From Bacteroidota bacterium (GTDB lineage: Bacteria; Bacteroidota; Bacteroidia; Chitinophagales; Saprospiraceae): a DNA stretch of 64,000 nt. A program made the position numbers and the translations under genes. Numbering within the stretch: the stretch's first letter is position 1; the number at the start of each line of letters is the position of its first letter. Location of the stretch: positions 1 through 64,000 of the forward strand of contig JASBVF010000043.1 of assembly GCA_030147525.1 (NCBI GenBank). Direction: 5' to 3'. The notes beneath the pieces were generated by a model. That model worked only from the letters and a program-made list of their open reading frames with translations, ran no database searches and had not been told where the DNA came from. Shown here piece by piece: positions 25,995 through 36,536 of the stretch.

Positions 25995-26336
25995 TCACTG
26001 CCGCTTGCGGCGTTTGTCGTTGTAGTGGTAATGAACTTCACCGTTGAGAAATTCCTCCGTAGCGATCAGGGTCGGATTAGGAAGTCTTTCGTAAAACTTG
26101 GAGATTTCGATTTGCTCCTTATTTTCGGTAACTTCTTCGATGGTATCCGTATTGACAGCAAACTCTTCCAGTTTGTTGTGCAACTCGTGCTTCAGGTCTA
26201 TTGCCAACTGCTTGGAGCGTTTGGAAATGATAGCCAGCGTTTCGTAAATATTGCCGGTTGGACCCACCATTTGGGCAATGTCCCGGGCTTTTACGTTAGC
26301 GTCCAGCCCCTGCGCTTTGGTTTTGATATCTGCCAT
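25995..26336 (-). CDS. rpoZ: RNA polymerase omega subunit (Bacteroidota type)
   Basis: A 113-residue protein matching the Rpb6-like omega family of Bacteroidota. The helical core contains GNIYETLAIISKRSKQLAID followed by the acidic middle and the FYERLPNPTLIATEEFLNG motif near the C-terminus. Omega helps assemble and stabilise RNA polymerase. Its start overlaps the end of bamD by 41 bases in another frame, consistent with coupling. The charged tail KRRKRQ ends the protein. Confidence 0.88.
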   Translation of the reverse strand: MADIKTKAQGLDANVKARDIAQMVGPTGNIYETLAIISKRSKQLAIDLKHELHNKLEEFAVNTDTIEEVTENKEQIEISKFYERLPNPTLIATEEFLNGEVHYHYNDKRRKRQ

Positions 26337-27141
26337 TAGTCAATGATTTTAATTTCTTGATTGAATCTTTATGAATGGATTGCACCTCCTTGTAATTCGG
26401 GCTACCCTTGAATTTTTCTAAAAAATCTTCAGCGTACGTAACGGTTTGCCGGTAGCGTTCTTCCTGCTTGTCGAAAATACTGTTTTCCGCCATCAGGAAA
26501 GCCGCTTTGGCCATTTGGTAGCGTACCTGCTCAGCATTGCTGGTCTCCGGAAAATCCTTCAGCAGGTTTTCAAATGTCACCATTGCTGCCTGGTATTGAC
26601 GAAGATCGAAGTAGAGTTTTGCTTCTTCCAGTGTCTTCTTTTCCAGTTTTAATCGCATCTCATCAATGAGGCGATTGCATTCTTTAACTCTTTCACTGTT
26701 CGGATAAGTATTGACGAACGTCTGAAACTCCTCGATCGCCTTGTAGCTGTAAGTCTGTTCCAGCCTGAAAGTTGGAGACATTTGATAATTCGAATATGCC
26801 GCCATGAAATCGGCATCTTCCTTCAGATTACTGGTCGGGAAGGTGGATGAAAAGTTTTTGAAATAATAACTTGCCAGAATGTACTTCCCCAACTTGTAGT
26901 ACGTGTAGGAATAAGTGTAGTAAACCTTTTCCAGTTCCGGCTTGCCCCGGTATGCCGGAATGATCAACTCAAACAGCGTCTGAGCTCTCAAAAACTCTCC
27001 CTGCTCGTAGTATTCAAATGCCTTTTTGTAAATCAAATCTGTATTGCCACTGGCACGGATTTTTTCAAATTCCGACTTGCATCCAGTAGACAAAATGGCA
27101 AATACTGCCAGGAAATATGCAAAAACGAACCTTTTTTTCAT
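26296..27141 (-). CDS. bamD: Outer membrane assembly factor BamD
   Basis: A 281-residue lipoprotein with lipobox ending at cysteine 21 (ILSTGC) and a body of TPR-like helical pairs; segments such as YEQGEFLRAQTLFELI and YFDLRQYQAAMVTFENLL are typical. BamD is the essential lipoprotein of the beta-barrel assembly machine in the outer membrane. It leads the bamD-rpoZ-coaBC-porD operon. A perfect TAnnTTTG-type -7 element (complement of CAAAGATA, 27149-27156) lies only eight bases from the ATG, so the transcript may start at or near the start codon and be leaderless. Confidence 0.88.
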   Translation of the reverse strand: MKKRFVFAYFLAVFAILSTGCKSEFEKIRASGNTDLIYKKAFEYYEQGEFLRAQTLFELIIPAYRGKPELEKVYYTYSYTYYKLGKYILASYYFKNFSSTFPTSNLKEDADFMAAYSNYQMSPTFRLEQTYSYKAIEEFQTFVNTYPNSERVKECNRLIDEMRLKLEKKTLEEAKLYFDLRQYQAAMVTFENLLKDFPETSNAEQVRYQMAKAAFLMAENSIFDKQEERYRQTVTYAEDFLEKFKGSPNYKEVQSIHKDSIKKLKSLTNGRYQNQSAGAGR

Positions 27142-27320: not shown

Positions 27321-27323
27321 TGC

Positions 27324-27518
27324 TGTGAGAGGAGGATTCGAACCTCCACGGGGCGGTTAGCCTCAGCACAAAGCCCGCCTGAACGATTCAGATCGGGCAG
27401 GATTAGTGGTCAACCCTGGTCGGCCTTACACATGGTATAGTCGGCTCTATGCTGCGTTTATCCCAGACTCCCCACCCCCGAGACAAGAGGGCATGGCTGC
27501 CTGTTTCATCATCTCACA
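27324..27518 (-). ncRNA. tRNA-like structured RNA, long-arm copy
   Basis: The minus strand folds as a class II tRNA frame. A 7-bp acceptor stem (TGTGAGA/TCTCACA) is followed by TG at positions 8-9 and a 3-bp D stem (ATG/CAT) with a GG-containing loop. A 5-bp anticodon stem with one G-U (CCCTC/GGGGG) encloses loop TTGTCTC. A 5-bp variable-arm base is TGGGG/CCCCG, and a 5-bp T stem (GGAGG/CCTCC) carries the canonical loop TTCGAAT. The variable arm is about 115 bases and contains a 12-bp stem (CAGCATAGAGCC with GGCTTTGTGCTG, two G-U). The 3' CCA is not encoded. The nominal anticodon GTC has a pyrimidine at position 37, odd for a decoding tRNA. Function unknown. Confidence 0.7.
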
Positions 27519-27523
27519 ATTTC

Positions 27524-27600
27524 AATGAATGAATGAGAGAATGTTAGAATGAGTGAATAGCGTTCATTCTCTCATTTAGAATTATATCATTCTCTCGTTG
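27524..27600. repeat. Octamer-repeat hairpin between the two tRNA-like RNAs
   Basis: The left arm (27524-27560) is built of 8-bp units GAATGANN (GAATGAGA, GAATGTTA, GAATGAGT). The right arm (27563-27600) carries the complementary family (TTCATTCT, TCTCATTT, TCATTCTC). The arms can pair imperfectly around a three-base turn. The unit is the same as that around the decayed four-helix-bundle gene at 33.5-34.0 kb. Confidence 0.7.
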
Positions 27601-27607
27601 CTTAGGC

Positions 27608-27730
27608 TGTGAGAGGAGGATTCGAACCTCCACGGGGCGGTTAGTTCTTTACCTTACAGTCAGGTGAATTTATTCCGCAATCCCCACCCCCGAGACAAGG
27701 GGGCATGGCTGCCTGTTTCATCATCTCACA
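27608..27730 (-). ncRNA. tRNA-like structured RNA, short-arm copy
   Basis: Its tRNA-shaped frame is identical to that of the copy at 27324-27518 except for one base in the anticodon stem, here fully paired (CCCCC/GGGGG). The variable arm is only about 45 bases between TGGGG and CCCCG. It has the same internal-loop bases near its base (GGAATAAA opposite CTAACCG; the other copy has GGGATAAA) and a distal stem ACCT/AGGT with loop GACTGTA. It is the promoter-proximal copy. A promoter-like pair of boxes lies at 27774-27806 and the shared terminator follows the second copy. Confidence 0.7.
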
Positions 27731-28170: not shown

Positions 28171-28689
28171 ATGAAGAAATTATTGAAAATCAGCATTTTA
28201 TCATCCTTCCTCCTGATCGCAGCTGTTTCCCTGAACGCACAGAAGTTTGGCCACCTGAACAGTGGCAACCTCCTGGTTCAAATGCCCGAAACGGCCGCTG
28301 CCGATGCCAAACTGAAAGTATTTCAGGACTCGCTGGTCGCAGTTGGAGAATCAAAAGCAAAAAAGCTGGAAGAGGAATTCAATGCATTTGTTCTTGAGTA
28401 CCGCCAGGGAAACATCCCTCCGGCAACAGCACAGAAAAAGCAGGCAGAGTTTCAGCAAAAGGAAACTGAACTCGCTGAGCTGGAAGAAGAAATCATGGAA
28501 AAAGTAGACTTGAAACGGGAAGAGTTGATCGGCCCCATACTTGAAAAGGTTCAGGTGGCTATTAACGAAGTCGGAAAAGAAGGTGGCTATACCATGATTT
28601 TTGATACAAGCATTTTTAACACAATCCTTTTTGCACAAGACTCCGATGACATCGAGCCACTTGTCAAAGCAAAACTTGGAATTGAATAA
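28171..28689 (+). CDS. Periplasmic chaperone, OmpH/Skp family
   Basis: A 172-residue protein with a signal peptide (about 1-23, ending in LNAQ). It has the FGHLNSGNLLVQMPE opening strand, a long central coiled-coil region (about 50-125) and a C-terminal return with YTMIFDTSIF, all typical of the OmpH/Skp family. Skp holds unfolded outer-membrane proteins in the periplasm for the BAM complex, which fits with bamD nearby. In Bacteroidota such genes often occur in pairs next to bamA; here it is alone, so it is probably an extra copy. Confidence 0.88.
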   Translation: MKKLLKISILSSFLLIAAVSLNAQKFGHLNSGNLLVQMPETAAADAKLKVFQDSLVAVGESKAKKLEEEFNAFVLEYRQGNIPPATAQKKQAEFQQKETELAELEEEIMEKVDLKREELIGPILEKVQVAINEVGKEGGYTMIFDTSIFNTILFAQDSDDIEPLVKAKLGIE

Positions 28690-32261: not shown

Positions 32262-33506
32262 ATGCTTGACTTCGACAAATGGCAGGAAATCTTTGAGTCG
32301 CTGAAGAAGCACAAGATGCGCACGCTGCTCACGGCATTTGCGGTGTGGTGGGGCATTTTCATGCTCGTCATCCTGCTGGGGGCGGGCAACGGACTGCAAA
32401 ACAGTTTTGAAAAAAACTTCGGTGACGATGCCATCAACAGCATCTGGATGTACCCCGACCGCACGTCTGAACCTTACAAAGGACTGCCCGCCGGGCGTTG
32501 GATCCGTTTCAACAACAGCGATTTCGATGTTTTGAAAAACAGGGTGGAAGGCGTCGAGTACATCACCGGACGCTACTACCTGGGCGGCGAACTGGTCGTA
32601 GAGTACGAGGGCAAAACCCTTTCCTACGACGTGCGCAGCGTGCATCCCGATCACCTTTTTATTGAAAATACGCTGATGAAAAACGGGCGCTACATCAACG
32701 AAACGGACATCAGCGAGCGCCGGAAAGTGTGCACCATCGGCAAGCTGGTGAAGGAGAGTTTTTTCAAAGAAAATGACAACCCGGTCGGCCAGCGCCTGAA
32801 CATCAAAGGCACCGAATTCACCATCGTTGGCGTCTTCGAGGACAAGGGCGGTGAAAATGAAATGCGCAAAATTTACATCCCCATCACCACTGCCCAGCGC
32901 ATTTTCGACACGCAGGATCGCATCCACCAACTCATCATCACCGTCGGCGACGCTACGCTGGCCGAATCGAAAAAAATTGAAGACAACATTCGGCAGGAGT
33001 TTTCTGCCCGGCATAATTTTTCACCCACCGACAAGCAGGCGCTCTACATCAGCAATAACATCGAGGAGTACCAGCAATTTCAGTCGATTTTCACCGGCAT
33101 CAAATTTTTCATCTGGTTCGTCGGCATCGGCAGCATCATTGCCGGGGTCGTCGGCGTGAGCAATATCATGATCATCATCGTGAAAGACCGAACGAAGGAA
33201 ATCGGCATCCGCAAAGCCATGGGCGCCACACCGTGGAGCATCGTGAGTATGATCCTCCAGGAGGCGATTTTTCTGACGGGCGTGGCTGGATACCTCGGTC
33301 TGCTTTCGGGCTTTGGCGTCATCTACGCCCTTCAAACTTTCATGGAAAAAAATGAAATCGAAACGGAATATTTCTACAACCCTGAAGTGGATTTTGCAAG
33401 TGTTTTATCCGCCCTCATTTTTCTCGTCGTCTGCGGAACGCTGGCCGGCCTGATCCCGGCGATCCAGGCGGTGCGGGTGAACCCGGTGACGGCGATGCGA
33501 CAATGA
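32262..33506 (+). CDS. MacB/FtsX-like ABC permease, first copy
   Basis: A 414-residue permease with one N-terminal membrane span (TAFAVWWGIFMLVILLGAG), a large periplasmic MacB-PCD domain (about 45-275) and three C-terminal spans (FtsX domain, about 285-405). The motif VKDRTKEIGIRKAMGATPWS is the standard coupling segment. It is a clear paralogue of the permease at 34012-35256, with the same length, the same KWQEIF start and the same C-terminal motif. The two may form a heterodimer on the shared ATPase. The stop codon lies inside an octamer repeat. Confidence 0.9.
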   Translation: MLDFDKWQEIFESLKKHKMRTLLTAFAVWWGIFMLVILLGAGNGLQNSFEKNFGDDAINSIWMYPDRTSEPYKGLPAGRWIRFNNSDFDVLKNRVEGVEYITGRYYLGGELVVEYEGKTLSYDVRSVHPDHLFIENTLMKNGRYINETDISERRKVCTIGKLVKESFFKENDNPVGQRLNIKGTEFTIVGVFEDKGGENEMRKIYIPITTAQRIFDTQDRIHQLIITVGDATLAESKKIEDNIRQEFSARHNFSPTDKQALYISNNIEEYQQFQSIFTGIKFFIWFVGIGSIIAGVVGVSNIMIIIVKDRTKEIGIRKAMGATPWSIVSMILQEAIFLTGVAGYLGLLSGFGVIYALQTFMEKNEIETEYFYNPEVDFASVLSALIFLVVCGTLAGLIPAIQAVRVNPVTAMRQ

Positions 33507-33540
33507 GAGAATGAAGGAATGAGAGAATGATAGAATGGGG
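33503..33540 (+). repeat. Left octamer-repeat arm flanking the decayed gene
   Basis: Five 8-bp units (CAATGAGA, GAATGAAG, GAATGAGA, GAATGATA, GAATGGGG) start at the permease stop codon. The reverse complement of the arm at 33975-34010 matches it in about 30 of 36 positions. Confidence 0.7.
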
Positions 33541-33579
33541 TGGCTATTCAGTCAATTCAAAGCTTAAAATCAAAATACT

Positions 33580-33974
33580 ATGAGCTACTTTTCAAAGCAG
33601 GAGAAAGCAGATTTTATTGAAAAAATGAAGGCCCGGACGAAGAAGTTTGCCATTGATGTCATTCATTTTTGCGATACCCTTCCTCCGACTCAGGCATGCA
33701 GGACGATTTCGTTTTAACTAATAAAAGCAGCTACTTCGACCGGCGCAAACTACCGTGCTGCATGCCGGGACCGATCGAAGGCTGAATTTTTTCAAAAATT
33801 TCGATCACAGTAGAAGAATCAGACGAAAGCCAATACTGGCTGGAAGTCATCGAAGGCTCGAATATCAAATGCGACAAAACAGAATTGAAAAGATTATTGA
33901 GCGAAGCGGAAGAAATCGTAAAGATCGTCTCCACCGCCCGAAAAAACAGTAGCGAAGGAACTGCGCCCCAATAA
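33580..33974 (+). pseudogene. Decayed four-helix-bundle protein (S23/IVS family)
   Basis: Conceptual translation after two repairs gives about 131 residues with the family signature: SFQLIKAATSTGANYRAAC, SKAEFFSKISI and SDESQYWLEVIEG. The first 45 codons are open, then TAA (33715-33717) replaces the expected CAA (Q). A run of six T at 33787-33792 lacks one T, shifting the frame. So it is broken twice. The family (TIGR02436) was first found inside 23S rRNA intervening sequences and is common in Bacteroidota genomes. Here it sits between two permease genes and between inverted octamer-repeat arms, which suggests insertion of a unit that later decayed. Sequencing error could explain the T-run change but hardly both. 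Confidence 0.8.
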
Positions 33975-34010
33975 TTCTATCATTCGTTCATTCTACCATT
34001 CACTCATTGC
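33975..34010 (+). repeat. Right octamer-repeat arm flanking the decayed gene
   Basis: Units TTCTATCA, TTCGTTCA, TTCTACCA and TTCACTCA run into the next permease start. They are the inverted counterpart of the left arm at 33503-33540 and also resemble the repeat at 32221-32261. Confidence 0.7.
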
Positions 34011-34011
34011 T

Positions 34012-35256
34012 ATGTTCGACTACGACAAATGGCAGGAAATATTCGGCACCATCCGGAAAAATAAACTCCGGACCTTCCTGACGGCCCTGGGCGTCTGGTG
34101 GGGCATTTTCATGCTCATCGTGCTCATGGGTGCCGGTACCGGATTGGAGAACGGCGTGTTCAGCCTCTTCGGCAGCCATGCCCGCAATGCCCTGTATGTG
34201 TGGACGCAACGCACGACCCTGCCATACATGGGCCTGCCGCCGGGACGCAATGCCCGGCTGAACAACGACGACATTCAGGCATTGGTGATGCATTTTGAAA
34301 ATGAAATCGAGTACATGGCGCCCCGCCTTTGGGTGAACGGCGGCGAGATCATCCACAAAGACAAAAAAGCCGCTTTCGATGTGCGGGGCGAAAGTCCTGA
34401 CATCGTTCACATCGACGCCTTCCAACTGGCAGACGGGCGTTTCATCAACCCACTCGACATGAAAAACCGCCGCAAGGTCATCGTCATCGGAAAGCGGGTG
34501 GTGGAGACGTTTTTTGAAAAAAATGAAAACCCCATCGGCGAATACCTCAAAATTCAGGGCGTGGACTACCTCATCGTTGGCACGTTCAAGTCCGACCGTC
34601 GTGGCGAGGATGCCGAGGAAGATGAAAAAACCATTTTCATGCCCCTGACCACCGCCCAGCAAGTGACGAACAACCCCAATTTCATCGGCTGGTTCGTCTG
34701 TACGATTGATCAAAAATACAAGGTCAGCGACGTGCAGGACAAAATTACCGGCCTCCTGAAAGAACGCCACAAAATCCACCCTGACGACGAGCAGGGCGTC
34801 CGTTCCAACAGTACCGAACAGGAAGTGAAAGAACTCAACGGCCTTTTCACCGGCATCAAACTGCTGGTGTGGTTCGTGGGTATCGGCAGCCTGTTCGCCG
34901 GCGTCATCGGCGTGGGCAACATCATGCTCATCATCGTGAAAGACCGGACGAAGGAAATCGGCATTCGCAAAGCGATGGGCGCTACGCCCCGCTCCATCGT
35001 GAGCATGATTTTGCTGGAATCCATTTTCATTACCACTATCGCCGGGTACCTGGGCCTGCTTTCGAGCATTGGGCTGGTGTACCTGATGAGCGTGGCGGCG
35101 GGAACTGATGTGCCGTTTTTCCTCAATCCGCAAATCAAACTTGGCGTAGGTGTGGCGGCAGTGCTAATCCTTGTCATCGCCGGGGCGCTGACGGGGCTGG
35201 TGCCGGCGTTGCAGGCGTCGAGGATTAATCCGGTGGAGGCGCTGCGGGATGAGTAG
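34012..35256 (+). CDS. MacB/FtsX-like ABC permease, second copy
   Basis: A 414-residue permease with the same plan as the first copy: an N-terminal span, a periplasmic MacB-PCD domain and three C-terminal spans, with VKDRTKEIGIRKAMGATPRS near residue 320. The periplasmic domains have diverged far more than the membrane ends, consistent with an old tandem duplication and specialisation. The adaptor gene follows after 41 bases. Confidence 0.9.
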   Translation: MFDYDKWQEIFGTIRKNKLRTFLTALGVWWGIFMLIVLMGAGTGLENGVFSLFGSHARNALYVWTQRTTLPYMGLPPGRNARLNNDDIQALVMHFENEIEYMAPRLWVNGGEIIHKDKKAAFDVRGESPDIVHIDAFQLADGRFINPLDMKNRRKVIVIGKRVVETFFEKNENPIGEYLKIQGVDYLIVGTFKSDRRGEDAEEDEKTIFMPLTTAQQVTNNPNFIGWFVCTIDQKYKVSDVQDKITGLLKERHKIHPDDEQGVRSNSTEQEVKELNGLFTGIKLLVWFVGIGSLFAGVIGVGNIMLIIVKDRTKEIGIRKAMGATPRSIVSMILLESIFITTIAGYLGLLSSIGLVYLMSVAAGTDVPFFLNPQIKLGVGVAAVLILVIAGALTGLVPALQASRINPVEALRDE

Positions 35257-35297
35257 CACATGAAATTGTAAATTTTAAAAAAATCAAATCACCCAAC

Positions 35298-36536
35298 ATG
35301 AATAAAGGATGCGTCATCACCCTCGCCGCCGTTATCGGCATTTTGTCCGTAGCGCTCGGCATTTATTTTTACAAACAAAGTAAAAAAGACCCCGTCGTGT
35401 ACGAGACGGAGAAGCCCGTCATTGCTGACATTGTTAAAAAAACAGTCGCTACCGGCTCCATCAAACCCCGGCTGGAAGTCAACATCAAACCGCAGGTGTC
35501 CGGCGTGGTGGACGAACTGTTCGTGGAAGCCGGGCAGATGGTGAAAAAAGGCGAACGCATCGCCCGCATCAAACTCGTGCCCAGCCAGGTGAACATCAAC
35601 AACGCCCAGTCCAGCGTCGAACTGGCCCGCATCCGCTACGAGCAGGCCCGGCGGGATCTGGCCCGTCAGCAGGAGGTTTTTAGTAAAAAACTGGACGTAG
35701 AGACCGCCCGTGCCCGTTTTGAAAATGCCAAACAGGAGGACGAGCGCAACAAAAAACTTTTCGGCGAGGGTGTCATTTCCGAGCAGCAGTACCAGCAGAT
35801 CAAGCGGGATCTGGACATTGCGAAAGCGGAATTTGAAAATATGAAACTCGTCTCCGGCAACAATCTCAAACAGTTCGAGGCCGAGGTAGAAATCCGCCGC
35901 CAGGAACTCAACGCCGCCATCGACAACCTGCAACTGCTGCGGGAAGGCGCCACCAAAAACTCCCAGCAGGTCGCCAACATTGTCGTCTCCACGGTGGACG
36001 GCATGGTACTCGACGTACCGGTGGAGGAAGGCACCTCCGTCATAGAACGCAACAATTTCAACGAAGGCACCAGCATTGCTATCGTCGCCGACATGACTTC
36101 GCTGATTTTTGAAGGCAAAGTGGACGAGTCGGACGTCGGGAAACTGAGGGAAGGCATGCCGCTCGAACTCACCATCGGCGCCATCGAAGGTTCGAAATTC
36201 GGCGCCACGCTGGAATACATTGCCCCGAAAGGCAACCTGGAGGAAGGTACCGTGAAATTCCAGGTGCGGGCCGCCATCGAACCGGCGAAAGACGTTTTCC
36301 TCCGGGCCGGCTACAGCGCCAGCGGGGACATCATTTTAGACAAAAAAGAAAAAGTGCTGGCCGTGAAGGAGCGGGATATCATTTTTGAAAAAGACACGAC
36401 CTACGTGGAAGTGCAGACCGGCGAGCAGCAGTTTCAGAAAAAACAGGTGCAACTCGGCCTCTCCGACGGCATCCAGATCGAAGTCGTAAGCGGGCTGGAT
36501 TCGACGACGATGGTGAAAGTGCAGAAGAAGCTTTGA
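35298..36536 (+). CDS. Periplasmic adaptor, MacA/HlyD family
   Basis: A 412-residue membrane-fusion protein. It has an N-terminal anchor (about 6-24), a lipoyl/barrel-sandwich half motif (KPQVSGVVDELFVEAGQMVKKGE), a long alpha-helical hairpin (about 95-215), the second lipoyl half (VVSTVDGMVLDVPVEEG) and beta-barrel and membrane-proximal domains. It links the permease pair to an outer-membrane TolC-like channel, which is not encoded here. Together with the ATPase and two permeases it forms a MacAB-like tripartite exporter; the cargo is unknown. Confidence 0.9.
   Translation: MNKGCVITLAAVIGILSVALGIYFYKQSKKDPVVYETEKPVIADIVKKTVATGSIKPRLEVNIKPQVSGVVDELFVEAGQMVKKGERIARIKLVPSQVNINNAQSSVELARIRYEQARRDLARQQEVFSKKLDVETARARFENAKQEDERNKKLFGEGVISEQQYQQIKRDLDIAKAEFENMKLVSGNNLKQFEAEVEIRRQELNAAIDNLQLLREGATKNSQQVANIVVSTVDGMVLDVPVEEGTSVIERNNFNEGTSIAIVADMTSLIFEGKVDESDVGKLREGMPLELTIGAIEGSKFGATLEYIAPKGNLEEGTVKFQVRAAIEPAKDVFLRAGYSASGDIILDKKEKVLAVKERDIIFEKDTTYVEVQTGEQQFQKKQVQLGLSDGIQIEVVSGLDSTTMVKVQKKL

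Follow-up and report, generated by a model that had tools for sequence, protein, structure and literature searches.

A family of tRNA-shaped RNAs with very long variable arms in Bacteroidota, probably linked to GatCAB and possibly a carrier of asparagine synthesis

Two tandem tRNA-shaped RNAs in a 64,000-nt stretch of DNA from a Saprospiraceae genome (contig JASBVF010000043.1; the whole stretch is here called the window) belong to a well-supported family of structured RNAs, 111-219 nt in length, whose occurrence is very probably linked to that of GatCAB. The reading that we prefer, and to which we give an even chance of being right, is that the RNA is a non-decoding derivative of a class II tRNA on which asparagine is made in a tRNA-dependent way, being charged by AspRS and amidated by GatCAB with the asparagine kept off the ribosome.

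Both copies lie on the minus strand. Copy 1, the short form, extends from U1 to the encoded C74 at 27606-27730 and matched the covariance model of the family with 122.6 bits; copy 2, the long form, covers the same part of the molecule at 27322-27518 and matched with 147.5 bits, being itself one of the 47 sequences behind the model that scores it. Every class II helix named in the original prediction was present in both RNAs (a 7-bp acceptor, a 3-bp D stem with GG, a 5-bp anticodon stem and a T arm with TTCGAAT), as were the anticodon loop TTGTCTC and the GGGG/CCCC base of the variable arm. The frames of the copies are one base apart, the differing base lying in the anticodon stem, and the A15-T48 pair, the GTC within a class II frame and the pyrimidine in position 37 had all been read correctly. 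In copy 1 the 5′ strand of the acceptor (27724-27730) starts with the U1 G2 U3 that is constant in 129 copies, its 3′ strand with G73 and C74 is found at 27606-27614, and the loop UUGUCUC (G34 U35 C36 U37 C38) at 27692-27698; the same loop of copy 2 is at 27480-27486. The variable region (positions 44-48) takes up 55 nt in copy 1 (27632-27686), with a 4-bp base, an internal loop AUAAA/CUAAC and an inner stem, and 127 nt in copy 2 (27348-27474), with a 4-bp base, an internal loop GGGAUAAAC/GCUAAC, a second helix and the hairpin AGGGUUGACCACU. The arms are long and unequal as predicted, although the 45 and 115 bases originally given for them omit the flanks.

The spacer between the copies (27531-27603, minus strand) is a dispersed palindrome-like repeat outside the RNA, and the genome contains 22 additional partial matches to the locus that map to that repeat. 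Further family members were searched for within the window genome and none was found. The genes flanking both copies are unrelated, one upstream and divergent encoding an OmpH-like protein (28171-28689) and one downstream a BamD/YfiO lipoprotein (26296-27141). Elsewhere in the window three consecutive ORFs (32262-36536) encode two MacB/FtsX permeases and an HlyD-type protein, and a viral-contig scan gave 0 matches.

The extent of the family was investigated with a search pattern for the anticodon arm allowing up to 3 mismatches, which matched in 82 of 198 related genomes, with tandem copies in several; the reversed pattern employed as control matched in 0 of 198, and the pattern matches are therefore not due to chance. 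A covariance model built from 47 long copies found the RNA in 95 of 196 relatives. Applied to 345 genomes sampled across the phylum, it gave matches at E < 1e-20 in 34, and one of the families concerned lies outside the class. Members of the family score 85-168 bits with this model and stand apart from a group of lower-scoring matches 77-88 nt in length, with at most 63.5 bits among the matches listed, that is read as ordinary class II tRNAs. With a broader model, the best matches in genomes without the RNA were tRNA-Leu genes in 29 of the 30 loci fetched. One named record with the RNA is a Lewinella MAG. For counts per position, identical sequences were skipped, 6 of 119 matches were then dropped as incomplete (contig end, N, no T arm) and one match spanning two copies was also dropped, and the resulting 112 copies together with 17 from alignment A3 gave 129 copies (127 distinct); alignments A1, A2 and A3 contain 80, 47 and 45 sequences, respectively. 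A tandem copy at positions 1606-1802 of locus L024 is possibly decaying: its loop reads GUCAC, and the inner motif that arms usually have is missing.

No Rfam family explains the RNA, a good match to a known family being one point on which the original prediction could have failed. Rfam 15 gave 0 matches in the window at gathering cut-offs, and the 8 matches obtained at a permissive threshold were all below cut-off and were read as chance, two of them being the T arm matched on the opposite strand to a plastid 3′UTR family. ARAGORN reported 0 tRNAs in the window and 0 in locus L009, and just one, a tRNA-Met, over 55 RNA-bearing loci, showing that the RNA is not part of tRNA operons there. Searching the window genome with RF00005 returned 38 ordinary tRNAs, neither RNA copy among them. 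In the open-access literature, including passages of PMC7609411 and PMC8007984, no description of the family was found; the RNA is an undescribed new family, and the chemistry it would serve is already known.

The structure rests on covariation since the folding of single copies is weak evidence. In 47 long copies, the 36-pair structure had 98.5% of cells paired, against 48-60% with the partners slid, and 16 pairs were changed on both sides, spread over all seven modelled helices (the acceptor, D, anticodon and T stems, the base and second helix of the variable arm, and the hairpin). Homologues with compensatory changes in the predicted helices, another point on which the original prediction could have failed, were thus found for all seven. 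In 45 diverse copies, 94.7% of cells were paired, and the three inner pairs as drawn align poorly there (57.9%). The arm begins with a 4-bp helix, followed by an internal loop, AYAAA facing CUAA, and by an inner helix. In long forms the model has a second helix of 8 pairs, and their hairpin carries GGGUUGACCAC, a strongly conserved motif, and short forms are without the hairpin; over the 129 copies the variable region measures 39-149 nt with a median of 82. Minimum-energy folds of six sequences, one of which was folded only from base 22 onwards, gave the whole cloverleaf in L171 alone; the window copies folded with the acceptor and T arm correct and the middle helices different. Fold z-scores were -1.8 for copy 1, -2.7 for copy 2 and between -1.5 and +0.9 for the other sequences. 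Two further ideas about the arm were judged by eye and set aside. A pseudoknot of GUCUC with the arm's GGGAU fits L166, with its CUC loop and GGGAG arm, but is unsupported because many arm variants are uncompensated, and the UAA/UAG of a presumed tag reading frame stem from a conserved helix position and are missing in short forms.

The positions conserved between copies are those expected for charging with aspartate and amidation by GatCAB. None of the 129 copies departs from U1-A72, G2-C71, U3-A70, G73, C74, U35, C36 or C38, the loop having been located by U35 C36 C38 with no copy failing, and G34 is present in 127. Both exceptions carry glutamate anticodons, UUC in L171 (3150-3260) and CUC in L166 (3071-3186). 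According to the review PMC9976931, aspartate identity has five strong and conserved determinants, G73, G34, U35, C36 and C38, and a minor one, G2-C71; it is U1-A72 that makes Asp-tRNA a substrate for amidation by GatCAB, and G1-C72 and U20a block this. All five aspartate determinants occur together in 127 of 129 copies, and U1-A72 in all 129, with the tRNA-Asp antideterminants G1-C72 and U20a absent (position 20a is A in 128 and G in 1). Part of the loop's conservation is due to ascertainment, as the first pattern used for searching included the loop; the acceptor end lay outside this pattern. The positions that vary across the 129 copies are within 4-7 and at 10, 32, 33 and 37. Position 33 is T in 119, G in 5 and A in 5, with C in some further copies, and position 37 is T in 122, C in 4, G in 2 and A in 1, hence a purine in 3 of 129. 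That these two vary although they lay inside the pattern is the reverse of what a decoding tRNA would show, and with 33 variable and 37 rarely a purine decoding is unlikely. The window genome also has an ordinary tRNA-Asp(GTC), and together with the Leu-like body these observations favour the tRNA-derived RNA with a non-decoding role that was first proposed from the window.

The flanking sequence contains putative transcription signals. The element TAAATTTG at 27781-27774 (minus strand), 51 nt upstream of U1 of copy 1, presumably fits the Bacteroidota -7 consensus, and a hairpin followed by T7 at 27317-27284 (minus strand) is by eye a probable intrinsic terminator. The promoter-like element and terminator said to bound the pair were thereby recognised, but neither was listed by a simple scan for sigma-70 promoters and terminators, of which the sigma-70 part does not cover a Bacteroidota-type -7 element. 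TAnnTTTG, which we take to be a Bacteroidota-type promoter element, occurs within 110 nt upstream in 71 of 112 copies, a raw count without shuffled control. Of 80 loci, 6 have a boxA-like GTTCTTT in the 45 nt preceding the first copy, where shuffles gave 0.2; with one mismatch allowed the numbers are 15 and 4.3. C74 is encoded in every one of the 129 RNA copies and likewise in all 38 ordinary tRNAs that the window genome has, in which the rest of the CCA is mostly not encoded, and this points to the same 3′ maturation. In 99 of 112 copies U1 is preceded by C or T, a base that could extend the acceptor stem to 8 bp by pairing with G73.

Since U1-A72 is constant in the RNA, 196 relatives were searched for GatB (PF02934), by which the presence of GatCAB was judged, and GatB was found in 133 of them: in 90 of the 95 genomes with the RNA (the exceptions being G012, G013, G032, G052 and G107) and in 43 of the 101 without it. 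GlnRS was also searched, because GatCAB is expected where GlnRS is missing; a GlnRS match above E 1e-40 was counted as absent, and the presence lists and genome sizes were transcribed by hand from the search results. Of the 154 genomes with GlnRS, 86 have the RNA and 81 of these have GatB as well, against 15 of the 68 that lack the RNA (p 1e-21). Restricted to the window's family (f1) and one genome per genus, those with GlnRS had GatB in 53 of 56 against 12 of 49, and outside that family in 19 of 19 against 3 of 18. Where GlnRS was absent outside the family the link vanished, as expected, with GatB in 8 of 8 genomes with the RNA and 28 of 32 without. Genome size did not account for the association, which held with size as covariate and in the 68 genomes of 3.0-5.5 Mb (28 of 30 against 8 of 38). 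On a GlnRS tree of 80 of the 117 f1 genomes with GlnRS, a gene tree that serves as species-tree proxy and on which RNA status was set by model or pattern, dependent evolution of RNA and GatB was favoured over independence (LR 52.5, p 1e-10). Parsimony gave 24 changes of the RNA and 20 of GatB on this tree, and the fitted rate of RNA loss was high only where GatB was absent.

Fifteen genomes have GatB and GlnRS but no RNA, 13 of them without even a pattern match. The expectation that such genomes hide a divergent RNA failed among the matches listed, the more sensitive search of these 13 giving only tRNA-sized matches among them. In that search the genome G099, which lacks GatB, gave one match of 160 nt and 38 bits.

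The window genome has GlnRS, and its tRNA-Asn (L136) has G1-C72 and not the usual U1-A72, for which reason it should not be a substrate of GatCAB; no ordinary need for GatCAB is therefore evident in this genome. In Table 2 of the survey PMC4206432, all 67 genera with AsnRS, GlnRS and GatCAB had tRNA-Asn with U1-A72, a rule from which the window genome, the one genome in which tRNA-Asn was inspected, departs. Asparagine synthesis was compared in a panel of 80 genomes picked by the analyst for completeness and balance, and thus non-random (44 with the RNA, 36 without). AsnRS was above cut-off in 80 of 80. TIGR01536 proved uninformative as a marker of AsnB because long-form AsnB paralogues match it widely (the general AsnB family gave 7 matches in the window genome), and likeness to one genuine AsnB query protein was used instead. 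Judged in this way, genuine AsnB was found in 0 of 44 genomes with the RNA against 10 of 36 without. For AsnA alone there was no difference between the groups (3 of 44 and 5 of 36; p 0.46), and either of the two was present in 3 of 44 against 15 of 36 (p 3e-4); on the 46 tree tips available from the 60 f1 panel genomes the association of RNA and synthetase was weak (p 0.026). The long-form paralogues might be a source of asparagine. None of RNA, GatB, AsnA and genuine AsnB was found in 15 of the 80 panel genomes, and lack of a synthetase is accordingly not specific to genomes with the RNA. Ten relatives (G020, G025, G038, G053, G054, G057, G065, G070, G081 and G117) have AsnRS with GatB, RNA, AsnA and genuine AsnB not found, and such relatives would be either asparagine auxotrophs or users of another route.

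The reading as an asparagine carrier builds on what was observed, namely the family and its structure, the constant determinants, the joint evolution with GatB, AsnRS in the whole panel and few asparagine synthetases; transcription, charging, amidation, exclusion from the ribosome and release are the steps that we infer. AspRS would recognise G34, U35, C36, C38 and G73 and charge the RNA with aspartate, and GatCAB would recognise U1-A72 and amidate the Asp-RNA to Asn-RNA. Inside the ribosome, Asn-RNA would put asparagine at aspartate codons, and the altered positions 33 and 37 together with the giant structured variable arm would keep it out. Asparagine would then be released for AsnRS or used otherwise. 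Taken further, the RNA may be a widespread and recyclable cofactor with a solely metabolic role, on which Bacteroidota turn aspartate into free asparagine; its anticodon loop and giant variable arm would isolate it from the ribosome, and it would replace protein asparagine synthetases. This wider claim we regard as somewhat more doubtful than the carrier role itself. In favour of an asparagine carrier, but no more than suggestive, is locus L078, 1 of 95, in which the start of a bacterial-type AspRS gene (aspS, GAD domain included) lies about 160 bp downstream of the RNA. Against an asparagine carrier stand the two copies without G34, the failure to keep G10 and the replacement of G1-C72, a pair that helps E. 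coli AspRS according to excerpts of PMC9976931. The genomes described above that have GatB and GlnRS but no RNA, the RNA but no GatB, or none of the four routes also speak against it. AspRS binds tRNA from the side of the variable loop, and a long variable arm could clash with it.

The identity elements and the co-occurrence with GatB are also consistent with a dedicated donor of aspartate or asparagine, charged by AspRS and amidated or not, from which an aminoacyl transferase would pass the amino acid to a lipid, peptide or cell-wall precursor outside the ribosome. Dedicated non-translational tRNAs are known, such as the staphylococcal tRNA-Gly for peptidoglycan. We consider such a donor unlikely, however, as it does not predict the tendency to lack AsnA and AsnB, and no transferase-like neighbour recurs among the neighbour clusters, which were named by eye. 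Conserved protein partners beside the RNA were searched for, and contexts recur within clades only, except for an Lrp/AsnC regulator gene: of the 27 loci outside f1, 18, in several families and two classes, have it in divergent orientation 97-214 bp upstream of the RNA. This gene, which also counts in favour of the asparagine carrier, together with a large structured arm and the strongly conserved hairpin motif of long forms, would suit a regulatory or sensor RNA that binds AspRS or GatCAB or reports the charging with aspartate or asparagine with no net flux, perhaps in concert with Lrp/AsnC. The gene adjoined the RNA in 0 of 68 f1-group loci, some of them fetched with only 1.5 kb per side. 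A regulator would moreover not need the GatCAB determinant in every copy, nor does it explain why the RNA is quickly lost in the absence of GatB, and we grant this role the same low probability as the donor.

Less probable again is a small RNA on a tRNA scaffold, the body serving for processing and stability only and the variable arm being the working part. The arm is indeed structured and covarying, and the ends look matured like those of a tRNA, but the arm is also the most variable part (39-149 nt) and lacks the hairpin in short forms, while the identity positions are constant and the link to GatB is left unexplained. The constant G73 and the long arm could also indicate a serylated class II tRNA, as SerRS recognises both according to excerpts of PMC7609411. 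Such a tRNA has no link to GatCAB or to the conservation of GUC and C38, and the spacing between V arm and T stem is two bases and Leu-like in the RNA. That spacing matters for recognition by SerRS, and we regard serylation as very improbable. Scarcely credible, finally, is an extra decoding tRNA-Asp with an odd arm, for which the GUC of 127 among the 129 copies would speak. Against it, 10 of the 129 have G or A in position 33 and some further copies have C there, position 37 holds a pyrimidine in 126, the window genome contains an ordinary tRNA-Asp(GTC), and the RNA was not found in 101 of 196 relatives.

Compared with ordinary tRNAs, the RNA resembles tRNA-Leu in its D loop GGYAG, A15-U48 and the two bases between V arm and T stem, but has G73 (129 of 129) and not A73, GUC (127 of 129), U37 and a variable region of 39-149 nt. 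With the tRNA-Asp(GUC) of the window genome it shares G34, U35, C36, C38, G73, G2-C71 and U3-A70, from which it differs in its class II body, U1-A72, the lack of G10, U37 and a U33 that is not always kept. tmRNA has similar tRNA-like ends, whereas the RNA has a full anticodon arm, no G3-U70 and a length of 111-219 nt; RF00023 gave only a match of 17 nt and 8.6 bits against a cut-off of 47, no consistent frame was seen by eye, and identity with tmRNA was rejected. YrlA bacterial Y RNAs are circularly permuted tRNA mimics bound by Ro60; tRNA mimicry is thus in common, but the canonical termini of the RNA argue against a Y RNA. Allo-tRNAs and selC-like tRNA-Cys, as described in excerpts of PMC7609411, likewise have a long arm and stand outside the standard set, but their acceptor and anticodon stems are longer, while the RNA has the canonical 7/5 and an arm that is far longer.

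The closest parallel to the proposed asparagine carrier is the synthesis of asparagine on tRNA-Asn by AspRS and GatCAB, reported for Bdellovibrio, Deinococcus and Thermus in PMC4206432. Shared with that route are GatCAB beside AsnRS and GlnRS, few asparagine synthetases and an acceptor with U1-A72. There, however, the acceptor is the decoding tRNA-Asn and AspRS must be non-discriminating, whereas here it would be a separate non-decoding RNA with the aspartate anticodon, the tRNA-Asn of the window genome being without U1-A72.

A structured RNA family present in 95 of 196 relatives and in distant families has thus been invisible to Rfam models and ARAGORN. If its role as asparagine carrier is true, a tRNA has been withdrawn from translation and is now a carrier in an amino-acid pathway. 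This would explain the retention of GatCAB beside GlnRS and AsnRS in many of these bacteria, and also the supply of asparagine in genomes that have AsnRS but no asparagine synthetase.
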